Assembly (NCBI GenBank): GCA_023078555.1
Contig: CM041204.1
Span: 1,646,923-1,710,922, forward strand
From: Ulva prolifera
Taxonomy: Eukaryota > Chlorophyta > Ulvophyceae > Ulvales > Ulvaceae
DNA: 64,000 nt
Direction: 5' to 3'
Part shown: positions 8,932-56,100 of the stretch, piece by piece
Position numbering within the stretch: position 1 is the first letter of the stretch
Layout: each line of letters starts with the position of its first letter
The notes under the pieces: model-generated
Database searches by the model: none
The model's input: the letters and a program-made list of their open reading frames with translations, nothing else
What the model was told of the DNA's origin: nothing
Program-made: the position numbers and the translations under genes

Positions 8932-11244
8932 TCACAGCACCCCACGGGGAGGCCGGCGACGGTGTTTTGAGCGGCAGGAGAGTTTAACGCCCATCTGACG
9001 AGCAAGGCAGCGCAGGCGGGCCTTCGCTGCCTCCTCACAGTCTGTGTCATCGTCATCGTCACACTCGAGACCCTCCACATCGAGCGAAGACCAGTAGTCT
9101 GGGTGAAAGAGAAGGTCAAGCTCCTTGAGGGATGGCAGGCTGCCCACGGCGTGGACGAGGTCAGCGACAACTCCCCGGGGGTCCGTTACAGACACAGAGA
9201 GCCGACGCAGTGCAGGCCAAGGCGAAGCAACGACCATTACGGCCTCAACGAAGGCACAGTCCACCCCTGTGTCCTCGATGATGAGTGATGTGAGGAGTGG
9301 AAGCGCTGCCAGGTGGCGCATGACGGCGGAGCCACAGATGTCTGGCGTTCTGCAGGCACGGCCCAGACGCAGCCAGCGCAGCTGCGTCATCTTCCCGAAG
9401 GCCGCAAGGTCGTCGGCAGCAGCATTGGGTGCAGAGCCGACCTCGGAGGCGAGGTCATAGCCATCTAGTTGCAGGCTGGTGAGGCAGGTCAGCGGGAGCA
9501 GATCCGCGAGCCTCGGGCCTGCGCTGTCCAGCGACAGCGCCAGCTCCTGCAGCGGCAGCTGGCGCAGACGTTGAATGGCGTCTCGCCACTGGTCCTGGCT
9601 GTTGCCGGACGAGTCAAAGGCGTGCAGCGACAGGCATCTCACAGCTGGTGCGGCTGAGGAGAGCTTCTGTGAGGCAAACTCTAGCATGTGGGCATCGGGC
9701 TGGAAGTCAAGCGTGTGCAGCTGCTGCAGAGCCATCAGCTCGGGGCAAGTGCTGTGGAGCATCATGGCGACCGCCCAGCCGGGCCAAGTACGTGCAGATG
9801 CATCGGGCACACGCAGCCGTCTCACATGCTTGAACCTAGACATTTGCAGAACGAACGCCGCGATGTCATAGATTACCTCAGGGCTGCGGGAATAGGTGGC
9901 TTCTGCAAGGGTGAGGGTGGTGAGGGGTGCGTCCAGGTGGCTCAGGAACCTGGTCGCTTGCTGGCACCTCTGGACTTCTATGCTCAGGTCCACAAGCATT
10001 GGGAGCTTGAGAGTGGAGTTGACTCCGATGGCATCTGCGACGTCATAGATGTGGAGGGAGGTGAGGGCGGAAGCTGCAGAGAGCGTGGAGGCGAGGCAGT
10101 ATTGACGCTGGTCTGGATCGCAGCGCCGGCGCTTGGCAGGAAAAATCAGTGCAGTGTCATCATGCGCTTCCAGAAATAACATCCGGATCTCCGCCTCAGA
10201 GGGGTGCTGCTCATGTGGAACGTGTGCTTTAGTGTTGCGGTCGTGCGGATCTCTCGCCCCAAGTCTCAGGGACTGGAGTGCTGTGAGGGTGGACAGAGCT
10301 GGGGCGAGCATCTGGAGCGTTGCCGAGCGGTCGAAAAAGACGCCGAGGCTCAGGCTGGAAAGCCCTGAGTGGCGGCGCAAGACCGTGGCGAGCTGCGCGG
10401 GCTGCTGTGTCGATCTACTCAAGCGCGAGTTAGGTTCACCGCTGACTTCCAATGAGCGCAGCTGCAGGGATGCCGGGAGTGATGCGAAAGCATCGAGGAT
10501 TGAGTTGGAGTTTGGGGACAATGCCACCCGCACAGCTGTGTCGGGATGCACCACTGCTGCAACCATGCTGGTGTGGAGACAACGCGGCACCAGGGCTAGC
10601 ATCTTGTGTAGTTCAGGGCCAGCTGTGGGCGGGTCTGACCATGGCTCTGTGGCCACTGCCTTGTAAACTTGGCACAGGATGTGATCTGGCAGCTCCAGGA
10701 AGCAGCCGATAGCTTTCAGGACTCTTGCGTCGCGGTCAGGGCCATAGTCCATCTCATCCAGTTGCCTCAGCCTGTGGCTGAGCCGCTGTGACAAGTATTC
10801 TGCTATCAGCTGGATCCATCTACCCAGGAGTGGGTCGTCTATAGCATCTGCAACCTGAAAATAAAGGCTACAGTAGAGCATGGACGTCCATGTTGGACTT
10901 GCACAGCCAGGAGGTGGACACATGCCAACAGCCTGGTTCTACATGGTAAGAGGAACACCTGTACGTACCTTTGCAGCAGCGCACATTGTGCGCAGACATA
11001 ATCGTGTGAGATCTTTGTTCTTGGGACCTGGAGGGACAGCCGTCAGCCAAATTCGGAAGTCAGAGATCGTCACGGCTTCGGGCAGCCTGGCTTCCCCGCC
11101 GGCTTCAGCGATACATGAGAGAACGCTACACCGAGACACCACATCGCAATCAACTACATCGTAGAAGACTAGAGAGCCAGGCGATGCTTCGAGAGACGAC
11201 GACTGTGCGAAGCACACGGGGCTGTCAGAGTCGTGTACGCACAT
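8932..11244 (-). CDS. BTB-like/leucine-rich-repeat protein, tandem copy 3 (intact)
   Basis: Model: exon 1 11244-10969, exon 2 10854-8932, giving 732 residues. The donor AAG|GTACGT and acceptor TTTTCAG leave a 114-nt intron in phase 0, so the chain reads CAAAK-VADAIDD. Residues about 1-125 resemble a BTB/POZ or SKP1-type fold: FYDV, then a helix with SRCSVLSCI, the LPEAVTISDFRIWL block typical of the BTB interface strand, and LTRLCL. From about residue 200 leucine-rich units follow (LQSLRLGA, LTSLHIYDV, LTTLTLAEA, LQELALSLDS, LTSLIIEDTG), which suggests a solenoid. The start is the ATG shared by all three copies, but coding sequence may extend upstream through an acceptor-like TCACAG about 17 nt before it. 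The closest relatives are the two upstream copies. The family is not one I can name, and the BTB assignment is from pattern only. Confidence 0.72.
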
Positions 11245-21166: not shown

Positions 21167-21182
21167 CCCCCCCCCCCCCCCC
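21167..21182 (+). repeat. Poly-C tract (16 C) with shared flanks
   Basis: A run of 16 C is preceded by CAAAAATTATG and followed by GCCCGCTCTTTATG. The tract at 41693-41718 has similar flanks (GAAAATTCAAG and GCCCGGTCAATTTATG). Confidence 0.7.
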
Positions 21183-35874: not shown

Positions 35875-38800
35875 ATGCCGATTCCTACTTGTGAAATCAC
35901 GAAACTTTGCTTCACAACAGATGGGGATGGCGCGCCGCGAGTGCTTCCCTGTCGCCATGTTTACAGCCTGACAGGCATTCGCAAGGTGCGAGTTGCGCCA
36001 GCTTCCGTGCAGCATCGCCTGGAACATCGGCAACGTATACATTCTTGCTGCGTGAATGAGCATATGTATGCGGATGAACTCTGAAGAACCCCGGGTGCGC
36101 CAGCACTTATTCGAACACAGGGCTGTGAGTACGTATACAGATCATCGACGAAAGCGAGGGCGCTGAAGGAGCCTGCCCGAGATGTGGTTCACCAATATCA
36201 CCTGGAATTCTCAATCGACTTCCACGGCATAAGAAGCTCTGCACGCTTGTGAAACTGCTGACGACGTACCAAACGGGCCCTGTGCATCTCCAAGCAGTGG
36301 AGACACCAGAAAACACGGTAGACCATGATGGAGGGCATCCCGTCTACGCAGGTAAGCCAGCAACTGGAGCGATGATTCATTTAGTATCGAATTGCGTTTT
36401 CTTCCCTCGTGACATACGCTGGGCGCCGGGATGACAGAATCGCATTTGTCTCTGGCTGTAGCCCAGTCAGACCACGTCTGCCAAGAAGACGGTCAAACTT
36501 TTTCTGCGACATGAACTCATGCGCTGCCAACCACAGCTGCAGGCTGTCCACTGCCTGATGATGGGATAGAGGAGATGCTGTGAAGCTGCTGATCGTCACC
36601 TGCTGAACCTCTCTCCTGGGCTTTCTGTCTGTAAAAGTAACAACACACTTTCAGCCAAGAGCTCGACGAAACATCTGCGGACATCTGCGACTGCGAATCC
36701 AGTCCATGATTCGTGGTGCACTGTCGCTGGTGTATTGATCGAGATACCACGGCCTCTGCCTGCGAGAGCCACCCTTCAATGAGATTCTCATCTTCATGGT
36801 ACTCTGAGTCCCGCCTTCTGATTCCACTCAATCGTGGCCGGCTGCAGGGACTCTGCACAAAGCCGGAGTCGTCCGGCCTGTCCACGTCAAGGTCATCCCT
36901 CTGAGCGATGCACAGAAGGCGTCCCGGGCCTGGCGTGAGCTCGTGATGATGCTCCAGGTGCGCCACGTGCACAATTGGTGCAGTCTCAAGAGGCCGCCCT
37001 CATGCTGGCCGCTGCACTCATCCCACAAGGACATGGCCAGCACGCCTGACCTGCATGACTCTTACCCGGCTGCACAAATCACAGCACCTCGCCGAGGCGC
37101 ATCCGTTCCTCTATGCCATTGCTCCGGGCCACATGCTGCCGGCGTGGTGCAGCCTTGAGAAGCCTCGGTCGAGACGGCGCTGCGGCAGCGCACATGCATG
37201 GGATGCTTGTGCACCTGCAGCCACACAGCCCGTTCTTGTCGTGCTGCCTGCCTCCTCGTCTTTGTCGTTGTAAAACACACCCCCCCGCACATCAGCCCCA
37301 TGTCACGACATGGCCTGTGTCGCGATATAGCCTCCGCATCCAAGTCAACGTTCTGGCATACCCTCGGGCGCACGAACGTTAGTAAACCCTTGATGTCCCG
37401 GCAGACGCACGCATGCATGTGCGGGCCGTGCTTCCCATTTCAGCTCCAAGTCTCCAAACCTATAGTACTCAACCTGCTCCCGTAACACACATGCATGCAC
37501 TCAGGACGGGAGGGGTGCGTTCATCATGGCCGGGGGTAATCATTGCAGGCTGGTGGGTGCGCAGGTGACGCAGGCTCTCGGGCGGAGTGTCGTGCGCACG
37601 CTCGGCTACGTCGAGCAGCCCGGCGTGAGCCTCAAGATCATCCTCGAGGCCGACGACGGCTCCGTGCTGCGCCTGCGCAGCGGCGGCCGCCTCGACTGCG
37701 AGTTCGGGGTGCGCCTCTACGTGTACCCCCGTCACTGCCTGTAACTTCCGTCACTGCCTGTAACTACTCATCACACCGCATGTGACCCTGGGACTCCAGC
37801 GATGCCCAACCTTAATGCCGTTTTCGCCAAAGCTGTCAGGGGAACGGTCGTGCAAGTGCGCTGTGCTGTGCTGCGTGCTGTGACGCGTGCTGTGCCCCTG
37901 CAGATGCGGCTCGCCGAGCGCGTCGCGTCCGCACTCGGCTGCCTGCACGCGACAAATGTCCTGCACGGCAGCATCTGCCCGGCGGCGCTCCGCATCGCGC
38001 CCCCCGCCGACGCCGCCGCCGACACCGCCAGGACGGCACCGACGTCAGCGACCCTCCCCCATGCATCGCAGAGCGCCGTAGTGCACACCGACGAAGGGGT
38101 GCGGGTGATGCTCGGCGAGCTGTCGGACGCGTGCGCGGTCGGGCCGCCGACTTACACCGTACCCACAGCACACGCCACAGCCGGCCTCGCGCCGACCGCG
38201 GCACACTTCGCCGCGCCGGAGCGCGTGGACCGTGTGGCGGGTGTGCTCCGCGCGCAGTCCGACATGTACGCGTTTGCCGCCACGATGCACCACCTCCTCA
38301 CCGGCCTGCCGCCGCGGGATGCGGACGACGCGGCGGCGGCCGCGGCGACGCCCCCGGCGGCTGCCGCGGCGAACTCCAAGCCCGGCCTGAACCGCCGCCT
38401 CAGCGCGGGGCTGGAGAGGATGAAGAGCCTGACGTCGGGGGGGCCGCGGGGGGCGGCTGCGGCGGCGACGGGGGTCGACGCGGCGGGGGCCGAGGCGGAG
38501 AGCGGCGCCCCGGAGGAGTTCTTCGCACTGCTGCGGGAGTGCCTGGATGCGCGGGCGGAGCGGCGGCCCGGCGCGGAGGAGGTGGCTCGGCGGCTGGCGT
38601 TCATTCTGAGTGACGGGGACTTCAAGGACGGCAAGTTTGTGTCCCGTCGGCCCAAGGCGCAGGTGCGGCGCCTCGCCCACTACGCCGACATCTTCAGAGA
38701 GTCTGATCGTTGTGTTCATTGTCTTGTTGTGTATGGCTGAGGTAGCACGCGCCGCGACGCTGCCGGTGCCGTGCTGCATCTCGACCTCGTATCATTTGAT

Positions 38801-41800
38801 AGCAGCGGAGGAGCTTCGCCTGCCCGGACATCGGTGGCTCTCGCGGTTGCGGCACGCGCACAGTGTCACAGGTCTCGCGCCTGCAGCAGAATGCTGAGGT
38901 GCAGGTGCTGTGGCAGTCCAGTGGTATGGCCGCTGTACCACTGGATTGCCACAGGTGCCCATGGCATGTGCTGTGTGTGTCAGCCGCGGTGCCGTTCAGT
39001 CGCTGCGCCGGTCAGTGCCGAGGGCGAGCTTGCATGTCGTAGATATGAAGAGTGAGGTAAAAAGGTACAATGTGCGGGGCTGCCCGGCTCCTGGTGGGTG
39101 CTTCACATGCAATGCGCACACCGAGAGTTTGCACCGGAGAGGCAAGCCTATACACCTGTCAAACTGAAGGTGAAAAAACGCCAGGGGCCTGCCTGGCAAC
39201 CAGTTCGACAGTCCCGCGAGCTACCGCCGCATGCAGGCACACCAACCCGAGCCAGCTGCCAAAACCCACCGTGGTCTCGGCGCGACCGTCCGCACCCTCA
39301 TGCACATGGGCAGCGCTGGGTCGGCGGCGTCCGCCGACGCCGGCGGCGGCGCGAAGCGCGGCTTCCGCTTCTCGTCGTTGCGCGACAAGCTGGCCGCGAT
39401 GGTGTGCGTCGCGAAGGGCGCCGACAGCGCGACGGTCGCGGTGACGCGGGTGCACGCGCTGGGCGCGCTGCGCGACGACGAGGCGGCGCTGGAGGCGTAC
39501 ACGATGCCGTTTCCCGGAGGCACGCCGTCCGCCGCGTCGAGCGCTGGACTGACGCAGCACGCAGCAGGTGTGTCAGAACACGCGTCACTGCGACTGTCCT
39601 TTTCAGATGACCCCTGACTCAGAAGGCGCCTCCAGCGGCGGCTGGCCTCCGGCTCAATAAGCAACAATTCCGAGGCTTTATCGAAATTATGAAGTTACAT
39701 TCTATGATCAAATCCCCCAGGAGCTTCGACATCGTATGATTCAATCTGGCTCTATGTCAAGCCGACTCTGCACTGCTCAACATGGTGAAGCGATCAGTGA
39801 GACCTCAAGTGGCGTGAAATAAATGTCAGTTCAACCGTACAGATACACACCTGCAATCAGCTGACGGGGGTCTATTTACAATTGCATGCTAGTGTCGGGG
39901 ACCATGCCAGCTTATCATCAGATTTCAGGAGGCTTCAAGTAGGGCCACATGGCTCGCACGAGCCGTGGTCGTGCGGCCCGAAGACACAGAAATATCCCTG
40001 CTCCAGTGCGCCTTGTTTCATCAGTCGTACCCAAATAATTGTTGTGCCCCCAAAAATCACTAATCAGTGAACATCGCGCGGCTCCCCAAGGCACATCATG
40101 CAGTGGCTATGAGGGCATACAGCGTGTGTCAGGGGCCGCGATTCATGCGGGAGAGGCATATAGCATGTGGGACGCGTGGCTGTCCTCAGACACGTGTAGA
40201 GCATGCTGATACAGCTATTTACATCTATGATATGAGCGCTAGTGATTGTGGAAGTACGTGTATGCCGACAGCCACCACGGCCGCTGCCGTGTGGCATCCG
40301 CGGATGTTTGTGGGAACATGACGGGGGTCTTACTGATAATTTTATGGACATTTTGGGCGCTCGCCGGATGTGTTAAGGAATTATGCTGTATGTGGTGATA
40401 TGCACCAGTATGTAAACATGCTCCGCGTTCCGCGCTCGTGTGCTTGCACACGCCCTGGGCGAGGTGCTCCGACAATGCATGCAGCCGGGGCTGCGTGCTA
40501 TGCCATTCTGTGAGGTGGAGGTGGAGGTGCAGTGCGTCAGTTTGCGGGCCACGTTCTTCGGGATGGTGACGGGTGGTCACTCCGGCATGCATGGCACGCT
40601 GTGACCATGGCTGTCCGGCAATGCATCTGTGCCCTGTAGCCACGCGCCTGCATGCATGCAGGCATCCTCATTTGGGATTGCAGATGCATGGTATATTATA
40701 TGGCTCCACGCATGCGTGTAGCACGTAGACGGTAAAGTCATTGGAGATGTGCTTGCTGCTTCTGATTAGGCAACTACTGCACTGGCGTAACGTGCATGCA
40801 TTGGCAAGTGATGTGCATATGCCGCGCTACACGCGTTCAGACACAGACATATAGCACTTATGATCATAATTAATACAAGTGGTGAGAAGCTCTGATTAGG
40901 TGTAAGTATTGGGGCCTTTGCACCAATCCACAATGCATACGTGTACATCAAGCTTTCCTGCCAGAGTGCACCCCTGTGGCCACTGTACAAGTAATACTGT
41001 AGGCTGAAGAGCCTCGATCTCTACCCCGCTGCTGTGCTGTGTCACACTCAAGAAATCACGGTGATTTAGCGCAAGGTACCTGTGGTTACCGAGAGCTCGA
41101 GGAACAACACACATGAGCGCAGCCAGTGCTTGGCAGAAAGAACAATTGCCACTGAAAACCATCTCAAATCCCGATCCGGTCTCCAATCGCGCACTCTGAC
41201 TAAATACATCAACCCGCAGACCTCAGCGCGGGTCACGCTCAAGGCATTGTGACGATTGTAGGAGGCAGAACTGCTTGGTTCAGATCGTGCTGACGGGTAT
41301 CGATCGGCTCAGGGTGATGTTGACACAACTTTGTGCATCCAGGGGCGAGACAACGCCATCAATTCCAGGCACCACCTGCGCGGCAGCCTGCGCCAGACAC
41401 GGTCGACTCCACAGCATTCTTCTCGTCGGAGAGTGGCTCCGTGGCGACGTCTGAGCCAGTTGGGCCGAAGCCACCAACGCGCAAGGTGCGGCGCTGGGCG
41501 CCCCCTGTGGCCCCCGATCATCGCTCTCGCTCGTGTGTGGCTGCGGCAAACTCAAATTAAGGAGCACCAGAAGCGCCCTATCCATGCATGCTATCGATCC
41601 TGTTTTGCGAAGGATTGATGGCATGCCCGTCGATGCCGCCATGGATCGATGCCATCCAGTTCCGATGCCATTGGTCCGCATGAAAATTCAAGCCCCCCCC
41701 CCCCCCCCCCCCCCCCCCGCCCGGTCAATTTATGCTGCCTATGGTGTGGCCACGCATGTTGTTATTTTTTTCTGCAAGATGACTCTCCGCTCAAACTGTG

Positions 41801-44800
41801 CGAATCTCTCAGTGCAAACACGAGCCATACAAAGCAAACGTCAACGCGCGCATGTGTTTTGATCCCCATGGCAGCATATGGCATGCTTTCTCCTGCAACA
41901 AGACACCACCCGAGAAACGCAAGAGTCCAATGCGTCGGTGACGTGAGTGTGAGGTGCAGGCGGTGCGGGGCCTGTCGCCGCCGCGGGACGGGAGGTACGC
42001 GCACGAAAATCTCAAGGCGTGGGTGTCTCAGGTGTCCTCCGACGCCGCCGCGGCCGCCGTAGAGGCGCAGCCGGCGCCCACAAGCCGCCCGAAGCACCCC
42101 CTTGCCCTCGATGAACAGGCCTCTGTGCGCGCCCGGCCCAGCTCCCTGCCCATGCATGCTCTCACACAGCTGATTTTCCATTGAGTGTAATGAATGGCTG
42201 TTGACATTTCACGGAGCTGTACAGTGTGTGTTCCTGCAAATTGCGCTTCTATATTGTCAAAGTAGACTGCTGGCGAGGTGCCACATGTACCTACAGTGCT
42301 AGTAGTGCGCAAAGTCAGCTCCAGCTTGGGCGTATCCCACGAGGCATGCAAAAAGATTGTGGCTTGAGAGGGAACGGCGGGTGGTGCAGGTGGTGCTGAC
42401 GAAGCTGGGCTTCCCGCGGCTCGCGGTCGACATGGCCGTCTCCGAGAGCGCCGGCAACCTCGAAGACTCCCTCCAGATCCTTCTTGCGGTGCGCTCCTGA
42501 CGCCGCGCTCCCCGCCCCTGTCGACGTGAACTACGGTTTGTAGAAGCCTTGCCGATCTGCATATCTTGTTGTGGAGAGTGTGAGCTGCGTTTCGGAGAGG
42601 TGCACCGCGCAGCGGTTCTGTGTAGCGTTGTGTTACAAGCACACAGCCAGCGCGGCAGGTAGCACTGCAGGCCTCAAACAGGCGCACCACACGCGCACTG
42701 GGCACGCAATCATCAACACGCGGCACAGACCAACACACCCGCGTAGCGTTGTGCCATCGAACTTGTGGGACCGGGCTGGCATCGTGCAGCTACGGCATCG
42801 AATCGGAACCTGCAGTAGGCAGATGCTTCAGTGTTCAAGCTTGACACGCCCTATGTACCAGCCCCATCACAGCCCTGAAGAGCAACAGTCGTGTATGGCC
42901 ACATTGAACCTGGGGTCGATTCGGCCCCGCACATGCCACCGAGCCGCCACCGCCGCCGCCGCGGCTGAGCGGGCATACATGCGTGCAGCCGCAGGACGAG
43001 GTGCTCGTGCGCTGTCACCGCAGCATCGCGCGCGAGTACGCGAAACTCGCGGCGGCGGCGCAGGCGCGCGCCGCGGAGCGGCCGGGCGCGCCGCGCAGCG
43101 TGGTGACCGCGGACCTGTGGGACTGGGTGGAGGAGCAGGCCGGCGCGACGCTCGACGCGGACGACGTCAACGGCGTGCTGCAGCGCTCCGCGGGCGCCGC
43201 GGACGACGAGGACGTGAGCCTGCAGCAGTTCACGCACGTCGTCGTGCGCATGTTTGAGCAGTTCTTCCGCGTCCTCGACAAGCAGGGCTGCGGCTACCTC
43301 ACGGAGGTGTGTCTGTGCTGTGTGTACGTTTCTATGCATGAGGTGCATGCATGGTGTGCAAGCCTGTCTACGCCTCTCCTCTACCTCACGCAGGTGTGTA
43401 TGTGTGTACGTTTGCATGCATGAGGTGCATGCATGGCATGCTAGCCTGTCTACGCCGCTCCTCTACCTCACGCAGGTGCGTCTGCTGATCCAGTTGGAAT
43501 GCCTGGTTCCTCCAGACAGCTGCGCTTTCCCCGCCTCCCCTCTGAAAGTCGTTGCGTGCCCTCTCGCCTCTGCATGCGTGTTGGCCCCGCGGCTGTCTCA
43601 AGCGCGCTCATTGGTGCACTGTGAGCTCCTGTCTGTGCGGGATGCTAACTTCCATTGCCGGCAGGCTGCATCGAACAAAAACACTGTGCCTTTTTTCAGG
43701 GTGCATCAAACATGCATGCACGCACTGCAACGCCCTGGACTGGGCTGTGCAAGTGCGTAATACGTCGTTTGTGAAAAGCTGGAAGCTAGTGCCGACCCTG
43801 GATTCTCTCTCTGTGCATGCATGCACCACGGCATCCAACATGCATGCACCACGGCTGCCGCACGGCGTGGATCAGTGCTGCGCACCGAGGCTTTGGCGTG
43901 TGCTTGACCTGGGGCATGCATGCAGGAGGAGCTGCGGGAGGCGTTCTTTGACAGCAGCACCGAGGACGTGACGTCGAAGCTGCGGGGTGCCATGGACGAG
44001 ATCGACCTCAACGGCGACGGTGGCGTCTCGCTGAACGAGCTCCTCCTCGTAGGCCTCGGCCGCTCCCCCTCCCTCCATGTGCGCCCCCACCCTCGCCGTG
44101 CTTCCGTACGGTACTGCACATGCATGCATGCATACGCCGACATTGCAACGCGCCGCCGGCAATTCCAGTCCGCGCCCTCTCCCACACGAAGCGCCCGCCG
44201 CTTGCGCGCGTACGTGTGCGCAGGTCAGGGTGCTGGTGGCTCTGTGGCAATGTGTAAGGTGGCTATTGGTCGGCCAGACTCGTGGGCGTGCAAGCAGGGT
44301 CGCATGTGGTATACACCAGTTTGCAAACAGTAAGTCATCTGGATTTCACCATGAGCCGTATCCTGAAGAGAACATTCATAACTCTGAATGAACGGGAACA
44401 TGTGCCGACTTCGTGTGGCAAGATATTCCGTACGGGTACTGCAAACAGGTGCTGCCACACTCTTGCACCAGAGTGTACACGCATGCACAGCATGCACGCA
44501 GCTGTGAGGTGTTGCGTCCGTGCTGCAGAGCAGCTTCATGGGCACCCGGGCCCTCTCCAGCCACGCGCACGGCACAATCGCAGAGGAGGGGTCCGAGTCG
44601 GACTCCTGCACGCGAGCCGCCGCCGGCGCGCACACCGTGAGTCACGGCGACGCGACCGCGAGCGGCGCCGACGCGAGTGCGAGTCCGAGCGAGGACGGCG
44701 GAGAGGCGCAGCGCGAACAGCTGGAGGACATGACGGAGGACCTGACTGACCGCCTCACCCGGGGGGTCCCCCTTACAGAGTCAGAGGATGACAGCTCAGG

Positions 44801-44945
44801 GGCCCGCCCGGGGGAGAGGCCCCGGGGGGGGGAGGGTGCTGCCAGTGTCCCCGATTGTAGGTCAATGCCGGCTTGGCCGCCGCGCTTGCCCGACGGCACG
44901 CCTGTGCTTGGAGGTAAAGCGCACAACAGTGCAGATACAGTGTGA
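35875..44945 (+). CDS. Degenerate RING - pseudokinase - UBA - EF-hand multidomain protein
   Basis: Proposed exons: 35875-35985, 36141-36351, 36848-36957, 37565-37708, 37904-38662, 39237-39567, 41397-41485, 41960-42031, 42390-42488, 42995-43306, 43926-44048, 44529-44945. All phases match, giving about 925 residues. Residues 1-70 resemble the RING start of KEG-like RING kinases (C6, C12, LPCRH, CPRCG), but the cysteine pair after HVYS is missing. A kinase fold follows (about 95-430): VYAGTL, K122 in VHVKV, E138, then HGSICPAAL (213-221) replacing HRDLKPEN, GELS replacing DFG, and APE kept near 297. This marks a catalytically dead kinase. UBA: about 604-642 (KLGFPRLAVDMA, AGNLEDSLQILL). EF-hands: 737-748 (non-canonical) and 773-784 (canonical DLNGDGGVSLNE). 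The tail is acidic and Ser-rich. A calcium-sensing ubiquitin-linked scaffold is inferred. Least certain points: whether the UBA and EF parts are one gene (the EF exon has no in-frame ATG upstream), and the 3' end, where GTGAGT at 44637 or GTAAAG near 44913 might be donors. Confidence 0.7.
41693..41718 (+). repeat. Poly-C tract (26 C) in an intron
   Basis: A run of 26 C in the 1.8-kb intron before the exon at 41960 region, with flanks resembling those of the tract at 21167-21182. Confidence 0.8.
42620..42730 (+). repeat. Dispersed ~120-bp repeat, copy C
   Basis: GTGTTACAAGCACACAGCC and GGCAGGTAGCACTGC match copies at 21890 and 32425. Lies in the intron between the UBA and EF-hand exons. Confidence 0.5.
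43294..43475 (+). repeat. Tandem repeat duplicating a splice junction
   Basis: The end of the first EF-hand exon with its donor (CTACCTCACGGAG|GTGTGT, 43294-43306) is echoed twice in the intron as CTACCTCACGCAG|GT at 43381 and 43463. The units between, about 82-87 bp, are near-identical and contain GCATGAGGTGCATGCATGG. Each copy ends in a pyrimidine-rich CAG, so it looks like both an acceptor and a donor. Confidence 0.85.
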
Positions 44946-46819
44946 CGGCGGAAGCGTGGCTGAGGTGGCCATATGCATGTGCGCACGCATGGCCGTGTGC
45001 ACATGTCGTCTTGGGCGATTGGGGGCGCTGATGATTGATTTCATGGGGGATTGTGTGTGCGGTGCGGTGGCTTCCCCACGGCTCATTCATTGTGTTTTTG
45101 TGTGGCTTGTTTCGGCTTATGCAACGTGCTATTTGTGTGCCCACCTCTTGCTTGTGACCCCCCCCCCCCGCATGACCACCCCTTGGTTTGGTGGCTGTGA
45201 CTCTCTTGAGCCATTGCAATTCTTTCTGGCCAGGCCTTGTGTACATATGTGCCCCTTCTGGTGTGTTGCCATGTGCACTTACTGGTGCTTAGCTTGTGGT
45301 AAGGTACGCCTGGCTGTCTTCCCGGAAGCAGCCCGCTGGAACAGTGTGCTGCAAGAACACATTCGGAGCGGCAAGTAGCACCTCAGGCAGCCCGCCTGTT
45401 CCTTGTGTGCGTGGTCGGCTCTGCAGGATACACGCGGCATGTGCATTCCCCATACCTGGCCATGGGCTCCACAAAGCCGGTCGGGAGCTGCGGTGGAGAG
45501 TCATTTCCGACGCGGGCACGGCTGAGCCCTTGCTGCAGACGGTGCAACGTTGCCCCCCGCTGACCCTGTAAATGCCTAGAAGTGAAGTATTATTGTTATT
45601 GGGGCCCTCATGATGACCCCACAATGCTGGACTTGCGGTGAACGCGATCAATGCCTGTTCATCGGTGGTGTCAGGGACACTGTGAGGGGGCAGAGGCCGA
45701 GCTCGCTCCTGAAAACGAAGCACCGCCGGGCGCACTGTCAGTGATTTGGAAGTTGTGTGATATCAGGGGAGGTATGGTGAGGAAAGCTCTGAGCTCCGGG
45801 ACGGTCTGGCCTAGCGCGTGATGCATGCACTCGGCCACACTGTGGCCAAGTGAAGGCGTGCTTGCTTGAGAACAGTGTCGGTGCATCAGAGAGGTTGGTA
45901 TGCACCATGCATGCACTGATGGGAACCCTTCTGCGATTGCCTCCTCACATCAAACACCACTGCAGTGCTCTGTCAATATCAGCGCACGTATGTTTTGAAC
46001 ACGAGGACACCAGAACCCACGCACCTTGGCCACTGTGGAATCAGGCGCACCCCACAGTGAGGATGCTCGGCAGCCAGGAATGGTGCAACAGGCGAGACCA
46101 AACAACACCAGAGCAACACATAAACAGGTCTAGACAACGATTTGACTGCAGCATGCACCACTCCAACACAGCCAGATGGCACGAAGTGGTCAGGTGATGC
46201 GTTGCCTGCCAATCCACATGCCTCTCTGCAGCAACCTTTGCTCTTGAACATGCTGGCCAGTGATCACATGCCACACAGTTACATGTACAATTTCCGCCCC
46301 TGTTGTCAGAACACAGCCAGCACCAACAGTCGGCATGGCGCGATGTCAGAGCTCCGAGAGCTCGTTGCAGCCCGAAACTGGCATCACGCGTAGGGGGTGA
46401 GGATGCTCTCAAAGCACCACCTCCGCCGCCAATACTCACAGAACGACATTTTGGACAGGAAATCGCCTCCATCGTCAAGCACGCCACAGTTCTTCCGGCT
46501 TTGAGGAACCCTCTGCCAGGAATCATGACCTTCACACGACTTGCACCGGCACCGCCGGGCGCCCCACACGCAGGGGCATCCGCCGATGCCGCAGGCTCCC
46601 ACAGCGCCATCCACCACGCAGCCTAGGGCAGCGCCGCAGGGCCTCACCTGTCACTCACCTCCGTAGCCACGCAGCTGGACACCACAGCGCACCCATTTCA
46701 TCACCCCCAGCACACGCACCGCAGCCAAACACGCGATGACTCGCACGTGCACTCACAAATGCGCGCATCGCAGCGTCCATTTATTTTAAGCATTCACCCC
46801 AATGCATAAGCCACCTGCC
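44946..46819. other. Intergenic stretch between convergent genes
   Basis: It separates the 3' end of the multidomain gene from the 3' end of the phosphatase gene. A TGTAA motif at 45568 (plus) could serve the former, and a TTACA at about 46279 (TGTAA on minus) the latter. Frames with CPKC-type cysteine pairs near 46450-46620 on minus are not supported by splicing to the phosphatase. Confidence 0.5.
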
Positions 46820-49384: not shown

Positions 49385-50506
49385 TCACCTGCCGCATGCA
49401 CTGATAGCATTATGATACTTGTACAGGTACTGCGGCTTCGCTAAAACACTCAAAACGATCGGCAGCTGCTCTGCTTGTTCAGTACAGACATTGACTTTCA
49501 TTCGGCCCCAGGAATCAAAGCAACATGGCCGCTCTAGCTGCATTGCTGTTCCTAGATCTATCCTACTTGCTGCCATTGGAATCAACCACACCCCCATCGA
49601 AACATCCTCTGACCCGAAGTACTTCAGCCCGATCTCGTTGTGCATCAGAGACAGCGACTCGGCAAGTGTCATAGAAATCAAGTATGCACCAGAGGACATG
49701 TAGGGCAGGTAGGAGTTCAGGCCAGTTTCTTCCTGGTACCTCCTGTCATTGGTGATCTCCTTGTTGGTGATCTGCCGACCTGCCCAGATGTCTTCACCTC
49801 TGCACTTAGCTGCAGCACAAACGTGCTCCAGCTTGGCCAGCAGACGTGGCACAGAAACATAGCTACGGACATCCACCCGGAGGATGTGCAGAGCCTCGGG
49901 TGCCTCTGCAAAGTGCTCCAGCATCTGAAAAGCTGCAGGCATATCTGGATGCCTCTGAGCCCCAACTACTACATCACGGTACGTGTTAGCCTCCTGCTGC
50001 ACTGTCTCAGAGCTGGCAGTGAAGAAAAACACAGCCTTGACATGGTCGAGTTCCTGCGCTGTCTTCACCCAGGTGGCACGTGCTGCAGCCCGAAATTCGG
50101 CATCTGCAACGGGCTCTGAAAGAATGCCGATGAGGATGGTCGTGTTGGCCGCGCTGGAATCCGCGGCATGGCCATCGCACTTGTCTGTGAAGCAGGCTGC
50201 TCCTAAAGCATCGACCGTGGATCCAGTGCTCGGCATCAAAAATGAAGACGTCTGAAACATCTGCTGCATCACCGCCGGGGGTTCCTTCGCAGGTGCCCGC
50301 TTGTGAACGGTGAGTTGTGGACTTGGCCCACGCTTGCTTTGCATTCGTTCGCCATGCCGATGGCCGCTGATGAAGGACACTGCAGTCCATACGATAAGAC
50401 ACGCCCAGAGGAAGACCACAAATTTAACTTTGCGGGATGATGCCTTGCTGAAGAGCTTGCGCCTAAGGAGGAGGCGAAGCTTTGTGGCATGCTGCCCAAA
50501 TGCCAT
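49385..50506 (-). CDS. GT31-type glycosyltransferase (beta-1,3-galactosyltransferase-like)
   Basis: A single exon of 373 residues. An ATG at 50506 is preferred to an upstream in-frame TTG. The layout is a type II Golgi membrane protein: a basic cytosolic start (LRLLLRRKLFSKASSRK), one transmembrane helix at about 29-46, a Ser/Pro stem, then the lumenal catalytic domain. GT31 hallmarks are ILIGILSEP followed by RAAARATWV (125-147), WAGRQITNKE, LPYMSSGAYLISMTLAESL, and YFGSEDVSMGVWL near the end. GT31 enzymes transfer galactose or GlcNAc from a UDP-sugar in beta-1,3 linkage onto glycans. The metal-binding DxD site, usually DDD in KxDDDxF, reads RVDVRSYV here (Asp212), so only one Asp remains at that place. 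This may mean altered metal use or loss of activity. The nearest neighbours are unrelated. Confidence 0.85.
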   Translation of the reverse strand: MAFGQHATKLRLLLRRKLFSKASSRKVKFVVFLWACLIVWTAVSFISGHRHGERMQSKRGPSPQLTVHKRAPAKEPPAVMQQMFQTSSFLMPSTGSTVDALGAACFTDKCDGHAADSSAANTTILIGILSEPVADAEFRAAARATWVKTAQELDHVKAVFFFTASSETVQQEANTYRDVVVGAQRHPDMPAAFQMLEHFAEAPEALHILRVDVRSYVSVPRLLAKLEHVCAAAKCRGEDIWAGRQITNKEITNDRRYQEETGLNSYLPYMSSGAYLISMTLAESLSLMHNEIGLKYFGSEDVSMGVWLIPMAASRIDLGTAMQLERPCCFDSWGRMKVNVCTEQAEQLPIVLSVLAKPQYLYKYHNAISACGR

Positions 50507-51048
50507 GCGATCACAGCGCAATCCGCAGCGTAAACCTCACCGTTTTTTCATGTCGGCAACAGTATAAAGACCTACTGAGTGTTGGCCAAAGGGGATGGTA
50601 CACCTAGGTATGGCGAGACAATGAAGACACTGTGTTCGACACTCGTGCACAAAGTGTATCATCGAAGGCTCAGCGAGCCTGTAGATGCATAGACATCCCA
50701 ACACGTGCTAGGGACATCTGCGACAGTGTTTCATCACGCGCCGATGATGAGGCGATGCCTCTCTAGATGCGGTATCAGGCCGGCTGTTTCACCAGGACAC
50801 ATTGGCCCCCATCGATCCGGCGAGAGAAGAATGAGACTCACAGCGACACGACCATCAAGCTGACCCCATTGCAGACAGATACGTCAAGCATCGTGTCAGC
50901 AATTTCATTGCGCACATGTATGAACATTACGTCCGTCACACATTGAATGTCTGTTCGTGCCAACTGGTTTCTCGTTTGTCGGTTTTGATATTATAGCAAA
51001 CGTTTTACTGTTCAATGACATCAAGTACTCCAGCCGCAAAGCTGCGGT

Positions 51049-51119
51049 GTCCAGGTGGTTTAGTGGTAGAATACTCGCCTGCCACGCGGGAGACCCGGGT
51101 TCGATTCCCGGCTTGGACG
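51049..51119 (+). tRNA. trnG-GCC: tRNA-Gly (anticodon GCC)
   Basis: A full cloverleaf can be drawn. The acceptor arms GTCCAGG and CTTGGAC pair with one G-U. The D arm contains TTTAGTGGTAGAA, including the B-box-like A-block TGGTTTAGTGG. The anticodon stem is CTCGC/GCGGG around the loop CTGCCAC with anticodon GCC. The T arm is CCGGG-TTCGATT-CCCGG. There is no intron and no encoded CCA. It closely resembles the common eukaryotic nuclear tRNA-Gly(GCC). Confidence 0.95.
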
Positions 51120-52612
51120 TCCGGTCCTTTTGAAGATGGGAGTATTGGAGCTGGAAGGCGTACATGCTTTGTCTGGGTTGGCATCCGAGGGATGCCTCAG
51201 GTGCGGGGAAAGGTACGACCACATCCCGTTGCCTGTCCGCAGGGTCAGGCAGGCTGTTGCGTGCATCAGGGCAGTTTCACTGAGATCATGGAAAATGTCA
51301 GGCTCGAGCAAGTTCTCTCCAACCCTGCCTCCAGTTGGGGTTTGTGCGAGGGCAGATGCTGCAGCATGCAGTCTGCAGCAGCCTATGCAGCCTGAGACAC
51401 CTCGTGGGTTGCTGAAAACCCGGTCAGGCCTGACCGGATGGGCTCAGACATCACCTTGTGGGCTGCTACAGCTTTCGCTGTGGGAGCAAATCACTCCTCA
51501 AAACGCCGCTGCAGTGGCCTCCAGGGGGCGCAAACTACACCTACTTGATGGCTTGAGTCTCCGTGCCCTTATACCCCCCCCCCCCGCATGCACCGATTGC
51601 TTCAGAAGCTGTGCTTTGCTCAGCACCAGCATCAACTGCAGACGTGCCTGTGAGTGTATGATCTTCATGCACCCAGCCAATGCTCGAGGATCACATGGCG
51701 ATGTGTATGCCGTCACAGGGTGGTGGGAGCCGCGCATGTGTCCCTGTTGATCACACCACAGCGTTGTGCTTTGGTCACCTTTCCTATTGTCATCTGATGT
51801 GCCGCTGTTGCTGATTGCAATGCACAGCGCATGCGTGAGGTCCTCCTGCCCGTTCTACTAAAGCCCAATGAGCGCGGCTCAAGCGCGCGGCACTGTAGCT
51901 TCAGCATTTCGATTCACATGCGCATAGCGACAACTGCCGATAGCGAGCAACACTATGGCAACCCAGTGGTCACGTTGGCCTCATCGCTGGCTTGAGCAGT
52001 TGGAACGCATGCCAAGCCACGTGATGGATGGCAGGTGGCGTGTTGCTGCGAGGCAGGTCGTTACGGCAGCAGGTCGTTACGGCAACTGCTGGTGGTACCA
52101 AGGGTTGCTGATGAGCCACTAGATCTAGTCAATTGCAACATTACATATACAATATTGCACCCTCCAAGGACGCTTCAGCGACCTAAGACCGAGCGCCTCT
52201 GGAGCTATGGAAGCACTACAGGCAATGTTATATTATAGTTTATATTATATGCACATAGGTACGTGAGGTGTACCCGTGGCCTAGAATCTGCTGCCATCTG
52301 TCGCGCTGCTGAACAACCTTTTCTAGGGGATGGCTGCAGTGGTAGGGTGCCTCCTCTAGCTTGCGGACATGCATGGCATTGCAGACAGCCGAATTGGGTT
52401 CCTCTGCAGGCATGTGCACAGTGCACTGCACACGCACCAAAACACATGGGTGGTCAAGGTCAAAACTGGCGGGGCAGCTTGCACCGCGAGCCGTGCACAG
52501 ATACACCACCACCCACGGCAATCACATATACCCTCTCCCCAAGGTTGGCTGGTTGGAGTGGTACCCTGGTTGGTGTGGTACCCAACCAAAGGATAATACA
52601 CTGGTCCCGGAT

Positions 52613-52746: not shown

Positions 52747-53123
52747 CTGCAACGAATACGCGCGCCAGCTGCCAGTGTTCCGTCGTTCTGCAGCCCCACT
52801 AGAATGCCAGCGGACTAACCGCCAGTGGCCTGCAGCCTTGCCCATTTGGAACACCTAGATGTCTGTTCTATGTTTCGCCTGGCCTTCCTGGTGACCCGCT
52901 TGGCTGTGCAGCCGTCATGTCGGCGCGGGCCGCTGGCTGCCCGCGTGCCGTTGTCCGGCAGTCCCACTGGCAATCCTGCGGACTAGCCGCGGGTGATCTG
53001 CAGATTTGATTCGTTAAAAGTGTTGTGTGTTTGTTGTTTTAGTTTTGTGCCGTCTGGCCGGTTCAATGGCCCGTTAGACTGCACCGTTAGTGTGTCCGCT
53101 TTCAGCGGAACGAGTCCCTGCGT

Positions 53124-56100
53124 ATGAACTTTCAGTGTCCATATGACGGATGCAGCGCTAGTCTCTCCTCCCATTCAAGTCTGTTCACCCACATCCGAGG
53201 AATCCATCGCGACGGGCCGAGGCTGCCTACTGCGAAGCTGCACGAACTCAATGCCGCGTACTGCTCTCACTGTGGCATATTCGGCTCCACCAAGACCCCT
53301 AAGGCGCATAAATGTGTGGGAGGTCAGAACAGGAGCTTGAGGTCAGGTCACTGCGTGCTGCCCGCCACACATCCGGCCCGACAGCCCGCCCCAGCCCAAC
53401 CCGCCCCAGCCCAGCCCATCCCTGCCCAGCCCGCCCCAGCCCAGCCCGCCCAGCCGCAGCCCGCCCAGCCGCAGCCTGCCCAGCCTGCCCAGCCGCACCC
53501 CCATCAGCCACCCCGTCGCTTCACCGAAGCCCCCGCCGCCGCCCACTACACCGCCCAGCCCAGGCCCTCCCCGAAGGTCCCGGACACCGTCCATCCGGAG
53601 TTCGGCGACGCAACGGCCGAGCTCCTCAGAGATTTCAACGATGCCAGCGACGCGTCAAACATCGACGGAGCACGAGTGGCCCTGGGCCGCGTCCTCGACT
53701 TCCCTGGTAAGGTTCTGTCGCTGAAGGGAGGGGACGGCACGGCGCGCCGCGCTCGTACATGCATCACGCTGTTCATGGACGGCGAGGAGCCCAGGCTGGC
53801 GGAGCCCACTCCGAGCCAGAAGCGCAGAATGAATCAGAACCAGGATCGCCGCCTGGCGGGCTCCGTCCACAGGTCACTGAGCGACGGTAATGCCCGCAAA
53901 GGCGCGGAGAAAGTGGAGGCGCCGCCCATCGCCAGGTACACCCCGGAAGTGCATGAGGCGCTGCGGCACCTGCATCCCGCAGAAGCGCTCCCCCCCGACA
54001 CCCAGCCCGCCGAGCCCGCGCCCCCGCTGCAAATCGACGAGGCGACGCTCCGCGCACTGCTCGACAAGCTGCCGAAGGGCAGCGGCCCAGGCCTGTCGGG
54101 GTGGACGTATGAGCACATCCGGGCTGCTGGCACGGCCTCCACGGCCGCATTCACGGAGATTCACCGCTTCGTGAACGCGGCCCTCGCCGGCCGGCTGCCA
54201 CACCTCCCGCGCTTGCTGGACTGCCGCCTCCTCCCGCAGGAGAAGCCACAGGGAGGCGTCCGCCCTATCGCCATTGCAGAGACGTGGCAGCGCCTGGTAA
54301 GCCTGTGCGCCATGACCCTGTGCAGTGGCCTGGGTGCCTCCCTCGCGCCGCTGCAGGTGGGGGTCGGGGTGCCAGGGGGCGCGCAGAACCTGGGCCATGC
54401 TGCGCGCGCCGTGCTGCAAGCGTGGGACGCTGTCGTGCTTGTGCAGCTGGACTGGAAGAATGCATTCAACATGATGTCCCGTGCAGCCATCTTGGAGGCC
54501 GTTGCGTCTCACAAGCCTGCGCTGCTGCCCTTCGCCACCTTGCTTTACAGGTTCCCCGCAAATCTCTACATTGAAGGCGCACCGCCCGGCACCGCTGCAA
54601 TCACGTCGCAGCGCGGCGTGCGTCAAGGCGACCCCATCAGCCCGCTGCTCTTCACCCTGGCCCTCCAGGGCCCCCTCCAGGCAGTGCAGGCCCAGCACCA
54701 GCCACCCGGGAGGGAGGTCACGGCCGCCCTCATGGCGTATCATGACGACTGCACCATCGCCGGGCAGCGCGTGGACGCCGCCGCCGCATTCCGTGCGCTG
54801 GTCTCGGCAGCAGAGCCCCTCGGGCTGGAGCCCCAGCTGCACAAGTGCACGGCCTACTCGCGTGACCCCCAGCATGCGGGATCCGTCGCGGCCGCGCTCG
54901 GCATAACGCATGCCACGGAGGGCACCGTCATCACCGGCACGCCCATCGGCACCCCGGCGTTCGAGTCGGCGCACGCGGAAGCGACGGCCGACAAGGTGTG
55001 CGCCACCATCGAGAAGATGATGCGCTTGCCCCTGAAAGCGCAAGACCAGTTCTTGCTGCTCACGATGTCCTGCCAACGCCGTATGCTGCACTACGCCAGG
55101 GCGGTGCCGTGGGCGCACATTTCCGATCACATGCGCCGGACGGAGGCGTCCGTCCTGGCTGCGGTGAATGAAATCATGCGCGTCCCGCGGGACGACACTC
55201 GTGCGGCCGCACAAGCCGTCCTTCCAGCGCGCCTCGGAGGCCTGGGCGTCACGTCCACGCCGCAGGAGGTCGCAGACGGAGCGTACCTCGCTGCAGCGGC
55301 GGTGAGCCAAAAGGCGTTCGCAGGAGGCCCCGAGTGCATGCAGCCGTACCGGGGGCCGCACGGGCAACAATTGCAGGAAACCTGGCAGGCCCTCAACGTC
55401 GCTCAGCAGCTCCATCCGGAGCTGCCCGGGCCGGCGAGCGGCGACACCATCGCCAAGGTGTTACCTGGTATGCAGCAGCGTATCACAAAGTTGGTTGCCC
55501 TGCGCCGCCGGGCAGCTCTGCTTGCCAGCCATGACGTCGCCACGCTCGAGGGTGCATGCAACTTGGCACGGCTTCGCAGCTGTGCTTGCCGTGCAGCCAC
55601 CCTTTGGTTGAGCACCCTGCCGCTCTCCCAGGCGCTGCGCATGACTGACATTGAGTTCATGCTGTGCATCAGGTATCTCCTGGGCATGTCCCCAGCCCCT
55701 CCCAATGCGGTCGGCTCGCGCTGCGAATGTGGCACTCTCATACAGCCGCATGATCTCGACCACGCGATGAATTGCACACACAATGCGGGGACCTGAACTT
55801 CGCGCCACAATATCGTTGAAAAACAATGGCGCGAGATCGGGTCCCACGCGTGTGTGGCATCCACGCGCATCCCGCGCACAGCGCCGTTCGTCCGCGCGCG
55901 GCTCGCGGCCGCATCGAGGCAGATCCATGCTGGCCCGTTGGGCCCGCCCCCCCCTACTCCGCCCCAGCCCGCCTCCCAGGTCGCGGGCCCTTCGCGTGGG
56001 GCGGCCTTGCCCGCGGCGCCGGTGCCTGCAGCCCCGCCGCCGCCGCCAACCGCGCGCGCGGACGAGGCGCCGGCACCTACGCCTGCTCCGGCCGCCGACG

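Follow-up and report, generated by a model that had tools for sequence, protein, structure and literature searches.

KEG proteins begin with a RING domain followed by a kinase domain, and CDPKs combine an active kinase with EF-hands, usually four and directly behind the kinase, and carry no RING. A study of KEG describes two catalytic domains, RING and kinase, together with ankyrin and HERC2-like repeats, in a protein of the land-plant ubiquitin system (PMC5385374). KEG links ubiquitination with phosphorylation. In a survey of plant RING proteins, KEG is a lone protein group (PMC6118397). UPPER/PhWD2, a RING-kinase-WD40 protein, is reported as unique to green plants, with homologues absent from green algae (PMC10286513).

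Here, we analysed a locus of Ulva prolifera within a 64-kb window (the whole stretch of DNA under study, C9:1646923-1710922), using the 88.9-Mb assembly of 44 contigs as the genome searched. Its intron structure and content are, in our judgement, those expected of a green alga. The gene has in common with KEG a RING followed by a kinase in one chain. In contrast to KEG, both enzymatic domains are degenerate: the second, fifth and sixth ligand positions of the C3HC4 RING hold Thr, Ser and Gly, and the HRD and DFG motifs of a catalytic kinase were not found. An EF-hand tail would take the place of the ankyrin and HERC2-like repeats, for which the predicted 940-aa protein gave no Pfam match at E≤1. 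As in UPPER, a RING-kinase core would be joined to another C-terminal module, and UPPER shows that such cores take various tails; a Pfam scan of the 940-aa chain at E≤1 gave no match to the WD40 repeats of that protein either. As in CDPKs, a kinase fold would be followed by a calmodulin-like EF-hand region, but in place of an active Ser/Thr kinase we found one that has lost its catalytic loop. A hydrophobic-moment scan aimed at a CDPK-type autoinhibitory junction helix was not specific. It picked out several basic helices, of which the strongest lies at exon 3/4 within the N-lobe of the kinase, with further ones in exons 10, 6 and 5. In comparison with SnRK1/AMPK-type kinases, a UBA-like pattern behind the kinase had been proposed; it was not supported, and the kinase is inactive here. 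Since the gene shares the RING-kinase core but lacks the defining features of KEG, UPPER and CDPKs, we do not place it in any of these named families. It is built like a RING-kinase fusion, in which an EF-hand tail and the loss of catalysis would be new. In the literature, mostly non-subscription papers judged by titles and the beginnings of abstracts, no protein with RING, kinase and EF-hands was described.

Gene model and exon joins

Twelve exons were rebuilt on the + strand between 35875 and 44945, and every phase fits, giving a single stop-free chain of 940 aa. A first-pass annotation of the window had proposed this joining in matching phase, and it was recovered here in one open frame with GT..AG joins; all 11 donors are GT (nine GTG, two GTA). 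Two in-frame phase-0 AG acceptors are available for exon 6, which could start at 39204 or 39237. The 940-aa protein uses 39237 (CAG|GCA), and the codon score of exon 6 and the ATG and TGTAA scans were counted from 39240, in the same frame. The features are given below in window positions; TGTAA is presumed to act as a green-algal poly(A) signal.

35875..35985, + strand: exon 1; ATG start and first half of the putative RING-like domain, with C6, C26 and H28 kept
36141..36351, + strand: exon 2; second half of the putative RING-like domain (CPRC, C49, C52) and first strand of the kinase N-lobe (HPVYAG)
36848..36957, + strand: exon 3; part of the kinase N-lobe, holding the VHVK lysine and helix-C glutamate, inside the PK_Tyr_Ser-Thr match 105-214
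37574..37708, + strand: exon 4; kinase N-lobe/hinge, from the Pfam match
37904..38662, + strand: exon 5; kinase C-lobe with the HGSICPAAL loop, APE and helix-F aspartate kept, and two inserts
39237..39567, + strand: exon 6; linker without known domain
41343..41485, + strand: exon 7; linker, GC3 0.64
41960..42031, + strand: exon 8; linker, lowest support by codon score
42390..42488, + strand: exon 9; proposed UBA, which the model score does not support; an ATG lies within the exon at 42432
42995..43306, + strand: exon 10; helical stretch, then start of the altered-loop EF-hand (DKQGCGYLTE|EE); internal ATG at 43250
43926..44048, + strand: exon 11; remainder of the altered-loop EF-hand and the canonical EF-hand, loop DLNGDGGVSLNE at 44004-44039
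44529..44945, + strand: exon 12; acidic C-terminus without known domain, stop
45567..45571, + strand: TGTAA, possible poly(A) signal 622 bases 3' of the stop

GC3 lies between 0.78 and 0.97 in nine of the 12 exons. As the coding score was trained on 1,442 codons of conserved kinases with a GC3 of 0.55, it is not decisive for exons of this composition. By this score, the chosen frame ranked first of the three forward frames in 11 of the 12 exons, with a margin of only 0.01 in exon 6; the exception was exon 8 (-0.26 vs -0.22 for another forward frame). A reverse-strand frame scored slightly above the chosen one in exons 5, 6, 9 and 10.

Elsewhere in the window, an open frame of 901 aa (53091-55793, + strand) matches reverse transcriptase (RVT_1, E=2.1e-11) and marks a retroelement 3' of the gene, and a tRNA-Gly (gcc) lies at 51048-51122 (+). 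On the strand opposite to the gene, we found a 383-aa frame matching Galactosyl_T (49388-50536, -; E=3e-13) and a 668-aa frame with a leucine-rich-repeat match under the Pfam cut-off (8935-10938, -; E=1.9e-6). A poly-C tract is located inside intron 7 (41693-41718, +), and similar tracts occur at 21167 and 62730.

RING-like domain

To judge from its model scores, the RING-like domain encoded by exons 1 and 2 is likely to be real and degenerate. Against a RING model derived from ten RINGs that occur in this genome, the spliced exons scored 18.8 bits, a value reached by none of 5,000 shuffles (maximum 10.9). The degenerate RING of the first-pass annotation therefore holds up, but under the Pfam cut-off: the RING family zf-C3HC4_4 matched the 940-aa protein with E=0.27, and the separate piece gave a RING match with E=0.008. 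Scored singly with the genome's model, the two exons gave 9.7 and 2.0 bits, as against 17.6 when joined, and the join 35985/36141 came first of 164 GT/AG joins by RING score (17.4 vs 15.4 for the next). The unspliced exon 1 frame reached 8.3 bits and ranked third among the 1,386 frames of the window (top 10.6). A PDB sequence search with the RING piece yielded five matches at E≤10, the best three being true RINGs (TRIM56, E=0.29; Hakai, E=0.86 and 1.2) and the remaining two a urease accessory protein.

In the RING-model alignment, Ser31 and Gly34 occupy the fifth and sixth zinc-ligand positions, while C6 and T9 were placed by eye at the first two. With the ligands assigned to the two zinc sites as we assume, site II is intact (C26, H28, C49 and C52 are in place in the model alignment), and three of the four ligands of site I are lost in our alignment (T9, S31 and G34, where Cys is normal). 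The Arg that follows the last Cys, which has a role in RING E3 ligase function, is missing as well. Because the predicted fold keeps only zinc site II, the RING-like domain probably does not act as an ordinary E3 ligase. Codons 31 and 34 (AGC and GGC) are each one base away from a Cys codon; a sequence error at both positions could in principle explain the missing Cys residues, though this is unlikely.

Pseudokinase

Two kinase families, Pkinase at 32 bits and PK_Tyr_Ser-Thr at 29 bits, exceeded the Pfam cut-off in the 940-aa protein, and Pkinase gave 4.3e-9 with the separate piece. The PK_Tyr_Ser-Thr match (residues 105-214) begins inside exon 2 and crosses joins 2/3 (107/108), 3/4 (144/145) and 4/5 (189/190), which are directly supported since one kinase match runs through them; the Pkinase match covers residues 289-418. 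Among NCBIfam models only four bacterial kinase models appeared, far under the cut-off, and a single-sequence structure model of exon 5 was poor (mean pLDDT 42.7). Exon 2 contains the end of the RING and the start of the kinase, entered through the best of the 164 joins. As one exon carries parts of both domains, RING and pseudokinase share one chain, in agreement with the earlier proposal, and their order, RING then kinase, is well supported.

The kinase had also been called dead, which is borne out by its catalytic loop: HGSICPAAL replaces HxDxKxxN, with loss of the HRD-loop Asp, Lys and Asn. For comparison, we aligned nine kinase frames of the same genome, picked from kinase-model matches and thus favouring active kinases. 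All nine have an HxDxK-type loop (HFDIKPDN, HGDIKSAN twice, HGDVKSAN, HLDLKPEN, HCDLKPQN, HRDVKPEN, HMDIKPSN and HCDLKASN), and at the DFG position they read DFG (four), DMG (three), DFS and DWG. The pseudokinase reads ELS at this position by pairwise PDB alignment and DEG by multiple alignment; ELS is preferred because its distance to APE is more usual. The DFG motif is not intact in either alignment, though its Asp may be kept. The VHVK lysine, the helix-C glutamate, APE and the helix-F aspartate, to which we assign their usual roles in kinases, are all present. Sequence comparison thus confirms a pseudokinase predicted to retain the fold, with the catalytic loop lost.

EF-hands

EF-hand_7, EF-hand_6 and EF-hand_1 matched the 940-aa protein above the Pfam cut-off, and the separate piece gave 1.9e-8 to 3.3e-8 for these three families and 34.6 bits for the EF-hand pair, a match that spans join 10/11. 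The best PDB sequence match of this piece was calmodulin (E=2.2e-10). EF-hand loops bind calcium through ligands at set positions; all canonical ligands are present in the second loop, DLNGDGGVSLNE, and the first loop, DKQGCGYLTEEE, is altered, with Gln at position 3 and Cys at position 5. The two EF-hands that had been annotated are confirmed by these matches as genuine, one loop being predicted canonical and one altered. In a poor single-sequence model of exon 10 (mean pLDDT 63), the stretch in front of them is predicted to be helical; it may be what is left of another EF-hand. A Foldseek search with this model returned nothing at E≤0.001, and no EF-hand protein was among its 16 weak matches.

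Copy number and search for similar architectures

The gene is single-copy in its own genome. Searching with the 940-aa protein gave 13 places, 12 of them in the locus itself; the other one, at C6:8022668 (E=0.05), was rejected as a paralogue, since it sits in a RING frame that we take to be HRD1/SYVN1-like and is not a relative. Prokaryote contigs (30 pattern matches) and viral contigs (three) provided no confirmed relative, as expected for a eukaryotic gene.

We also compared the places of RING and kinase matches across the genome (at least 89 RING places, collapsed from 130 rows, and at least 160 kinase places, with pieces of the same gene dropped). Among the matches listed, no kinase has a same-strand RING in the 10 kb 5' of it; a RING lies 9.8 kb 3' of one kinase, and another is 17 kb 5'. 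Likewise, none of the UBA matches listed (17 rows) lies within 10 kb of a listed kinase or RING, and no listed RING lies within 15 kb of a listed EF-hand match. As a control, five kinase places among the matches listed have EF-hand matches behind them (77 EF rows); in these CDPK-like loci the distance is 0.8-3.6 kb, compared with ~5 kb in the gene studied here. Two EF-hand matches with identical scores, one on a small contig (C42:10141-10314) and one on a large contig (C8:157509-157682), suggest that the assembly includes a contig that is duplicated or represents an alternative haplotype.

Alternative readings of the locus

We consider it moderately probable that one gene spans the kinase and the EF-hand exons. 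The link is plausible from the phases and from exons 7-10, whose frames contain no ATG from the preceding stop up to the acceptor and which for this reason need upstream exons if they are full-length. No domain match crosses joins 5/6 to 9/10, which we infer. Alternatively, and with a probability below even, two genes adjoin: a RING-pseudokinase ending at TGA 38738 after exons 1-5, or at TGA 39615, to which the exon 6 frame continues, after exons 1-6, and an EF-hand gene starting in exon 6, in the 1.8-kb stretch behind it, or within exon 9 or 10. Exon 6 has in-frame ATGs at 39300 and 39306, and another at 39231 shortly 5' of the acceptor. Since exons 9 and 10 also hold internal ATGs (42432, and 43250 directly before the EF-hand pair), a short EF-hand protein could start at either of them, but exon 9 would then be unread in part, or exon 10 for the most part, although their frames are open to the acceptor. 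Intron 6 is long (1,775 bases), unique in the genome and similar in GC (0.525) to introns 1 and 2; it contains two TGTAA (40411 and 40901) and one AATAAA, as an intergenic gap could. The presence or absence of TGTAA is weak evidence, since the 37 copies counted in the 64-kb window match the roughly 35 expected from base composition. With the same caveat, a break after exon 5 would place a 3' end and a promoter in ~490 bases, and no TGTAA is found in intron 5. Against either break, the donors of exons 5 and 6 are of the ordinary CAG|GTG type, with matching phases. Weighing against a single gene are the distance of ~5 kb between kinase and EF-hand matches, longer than in the CDPK-like loci, the slightly higher reverse-strand codon scores in exons 5, 6, 9 and 10, and codon scores that do not decide exons 6 and 8; nor did the searches of prokaryote and viral contigs and of the genome itself give a relative in which this order is conserved.

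The first-pass annotation had placed four modules in one chain; the RING-like domain, pseudokinase and EF-hands were recovered as domains, and the UBA was not. By eye, exon 9 shows a pattern fitting a UBA (L..LGFPR..A..A....GNLE.SL.ILL), and among its five PDB matches at E≤10 there are two genuine UBAs, those of Ddi1 (E=0.23) and TDRD3 (E=0.59). However, the best Pfam match of the bare exon was UBA_7 with E=0.17, no family was found when flanks were included, and none reached the cut-off. With the genome's own UBA model, exon 9 scored 1.7 bits, equalled by 100 of 5,000 shuffles, and -0.8 bits with flanks, equalled by 368 of 5,000, other frames of the window scoring up to 4.8. In leave-one-out controls, flattered by their selection through a Pfam UBA search, all 11 real UBAs of the genome scored 13-44 bits, each beating 1,000 of 1,000 shuffles. 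We do not count a UBA because of this difference in score, and the sequence does not support one, although exon 9 might hold a very diverged copy. A calcium-responsive scaffold with all four modules, which would also hold ubiquitin, is accordingly improbable. Slightly more doubtful still is decay, in which a once active KEG-like RING-kinase is losing its function and the lost residues are marks of that loss. It would account for the ligands and catalytic residues missing from both enzymatic domains and fits a single copy without paralogue. Against it stand the retained residues that hold the folds (APE, the helix-F Asp, zinc site II), the high GC3 of most exons and the lead of the chosen frame over the other forward frames in 11 of the 12 exons. 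The open frame of ~2.8 kb over 12 exons also argues against decay, mildly, because the exons were chosen to be open.

Discussion

The reading we favour, tentatively and at somewhat below an even chance, is a single-copy nuclear gene for a RING-kinase protein that has lost catalysis, carries a calmodulin-like tail and serves as a scaffold tuned by calcium, not as an enzyme. Its RING-like domain and its pseudokinase would bind other proteins (for example an active E3/E2, or a client), and calcium at the EF-hand lobe would alter this binding. The more specific version, in which the one-zinc-site RING-like fold, the pseudokinase and the calmodulin-like lobe form a calcium-gated pseudo-E3/pseudokinase scaffold, is possible, and we hold it a little less firmly. 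Of the calcium-responsive ubiquitin-pathway scaffold originally suggested, the RING-like, pseudokinase and EF-hand components were found and the UBA was not; the scaffolding function and its control by calcium would follow from the nature of the remaining domains.

If the kinase-to-EF link and conservation hold, a RING-kinase core that has lost both of its activities and acquired a calcium sensor can serve as a scaffold, and calcium may have a direct route to the ubiquitin system. Such a gene in Ulva would also bear on when RING-kinase fusions arose; UPPER is reported to be absent from green algae.
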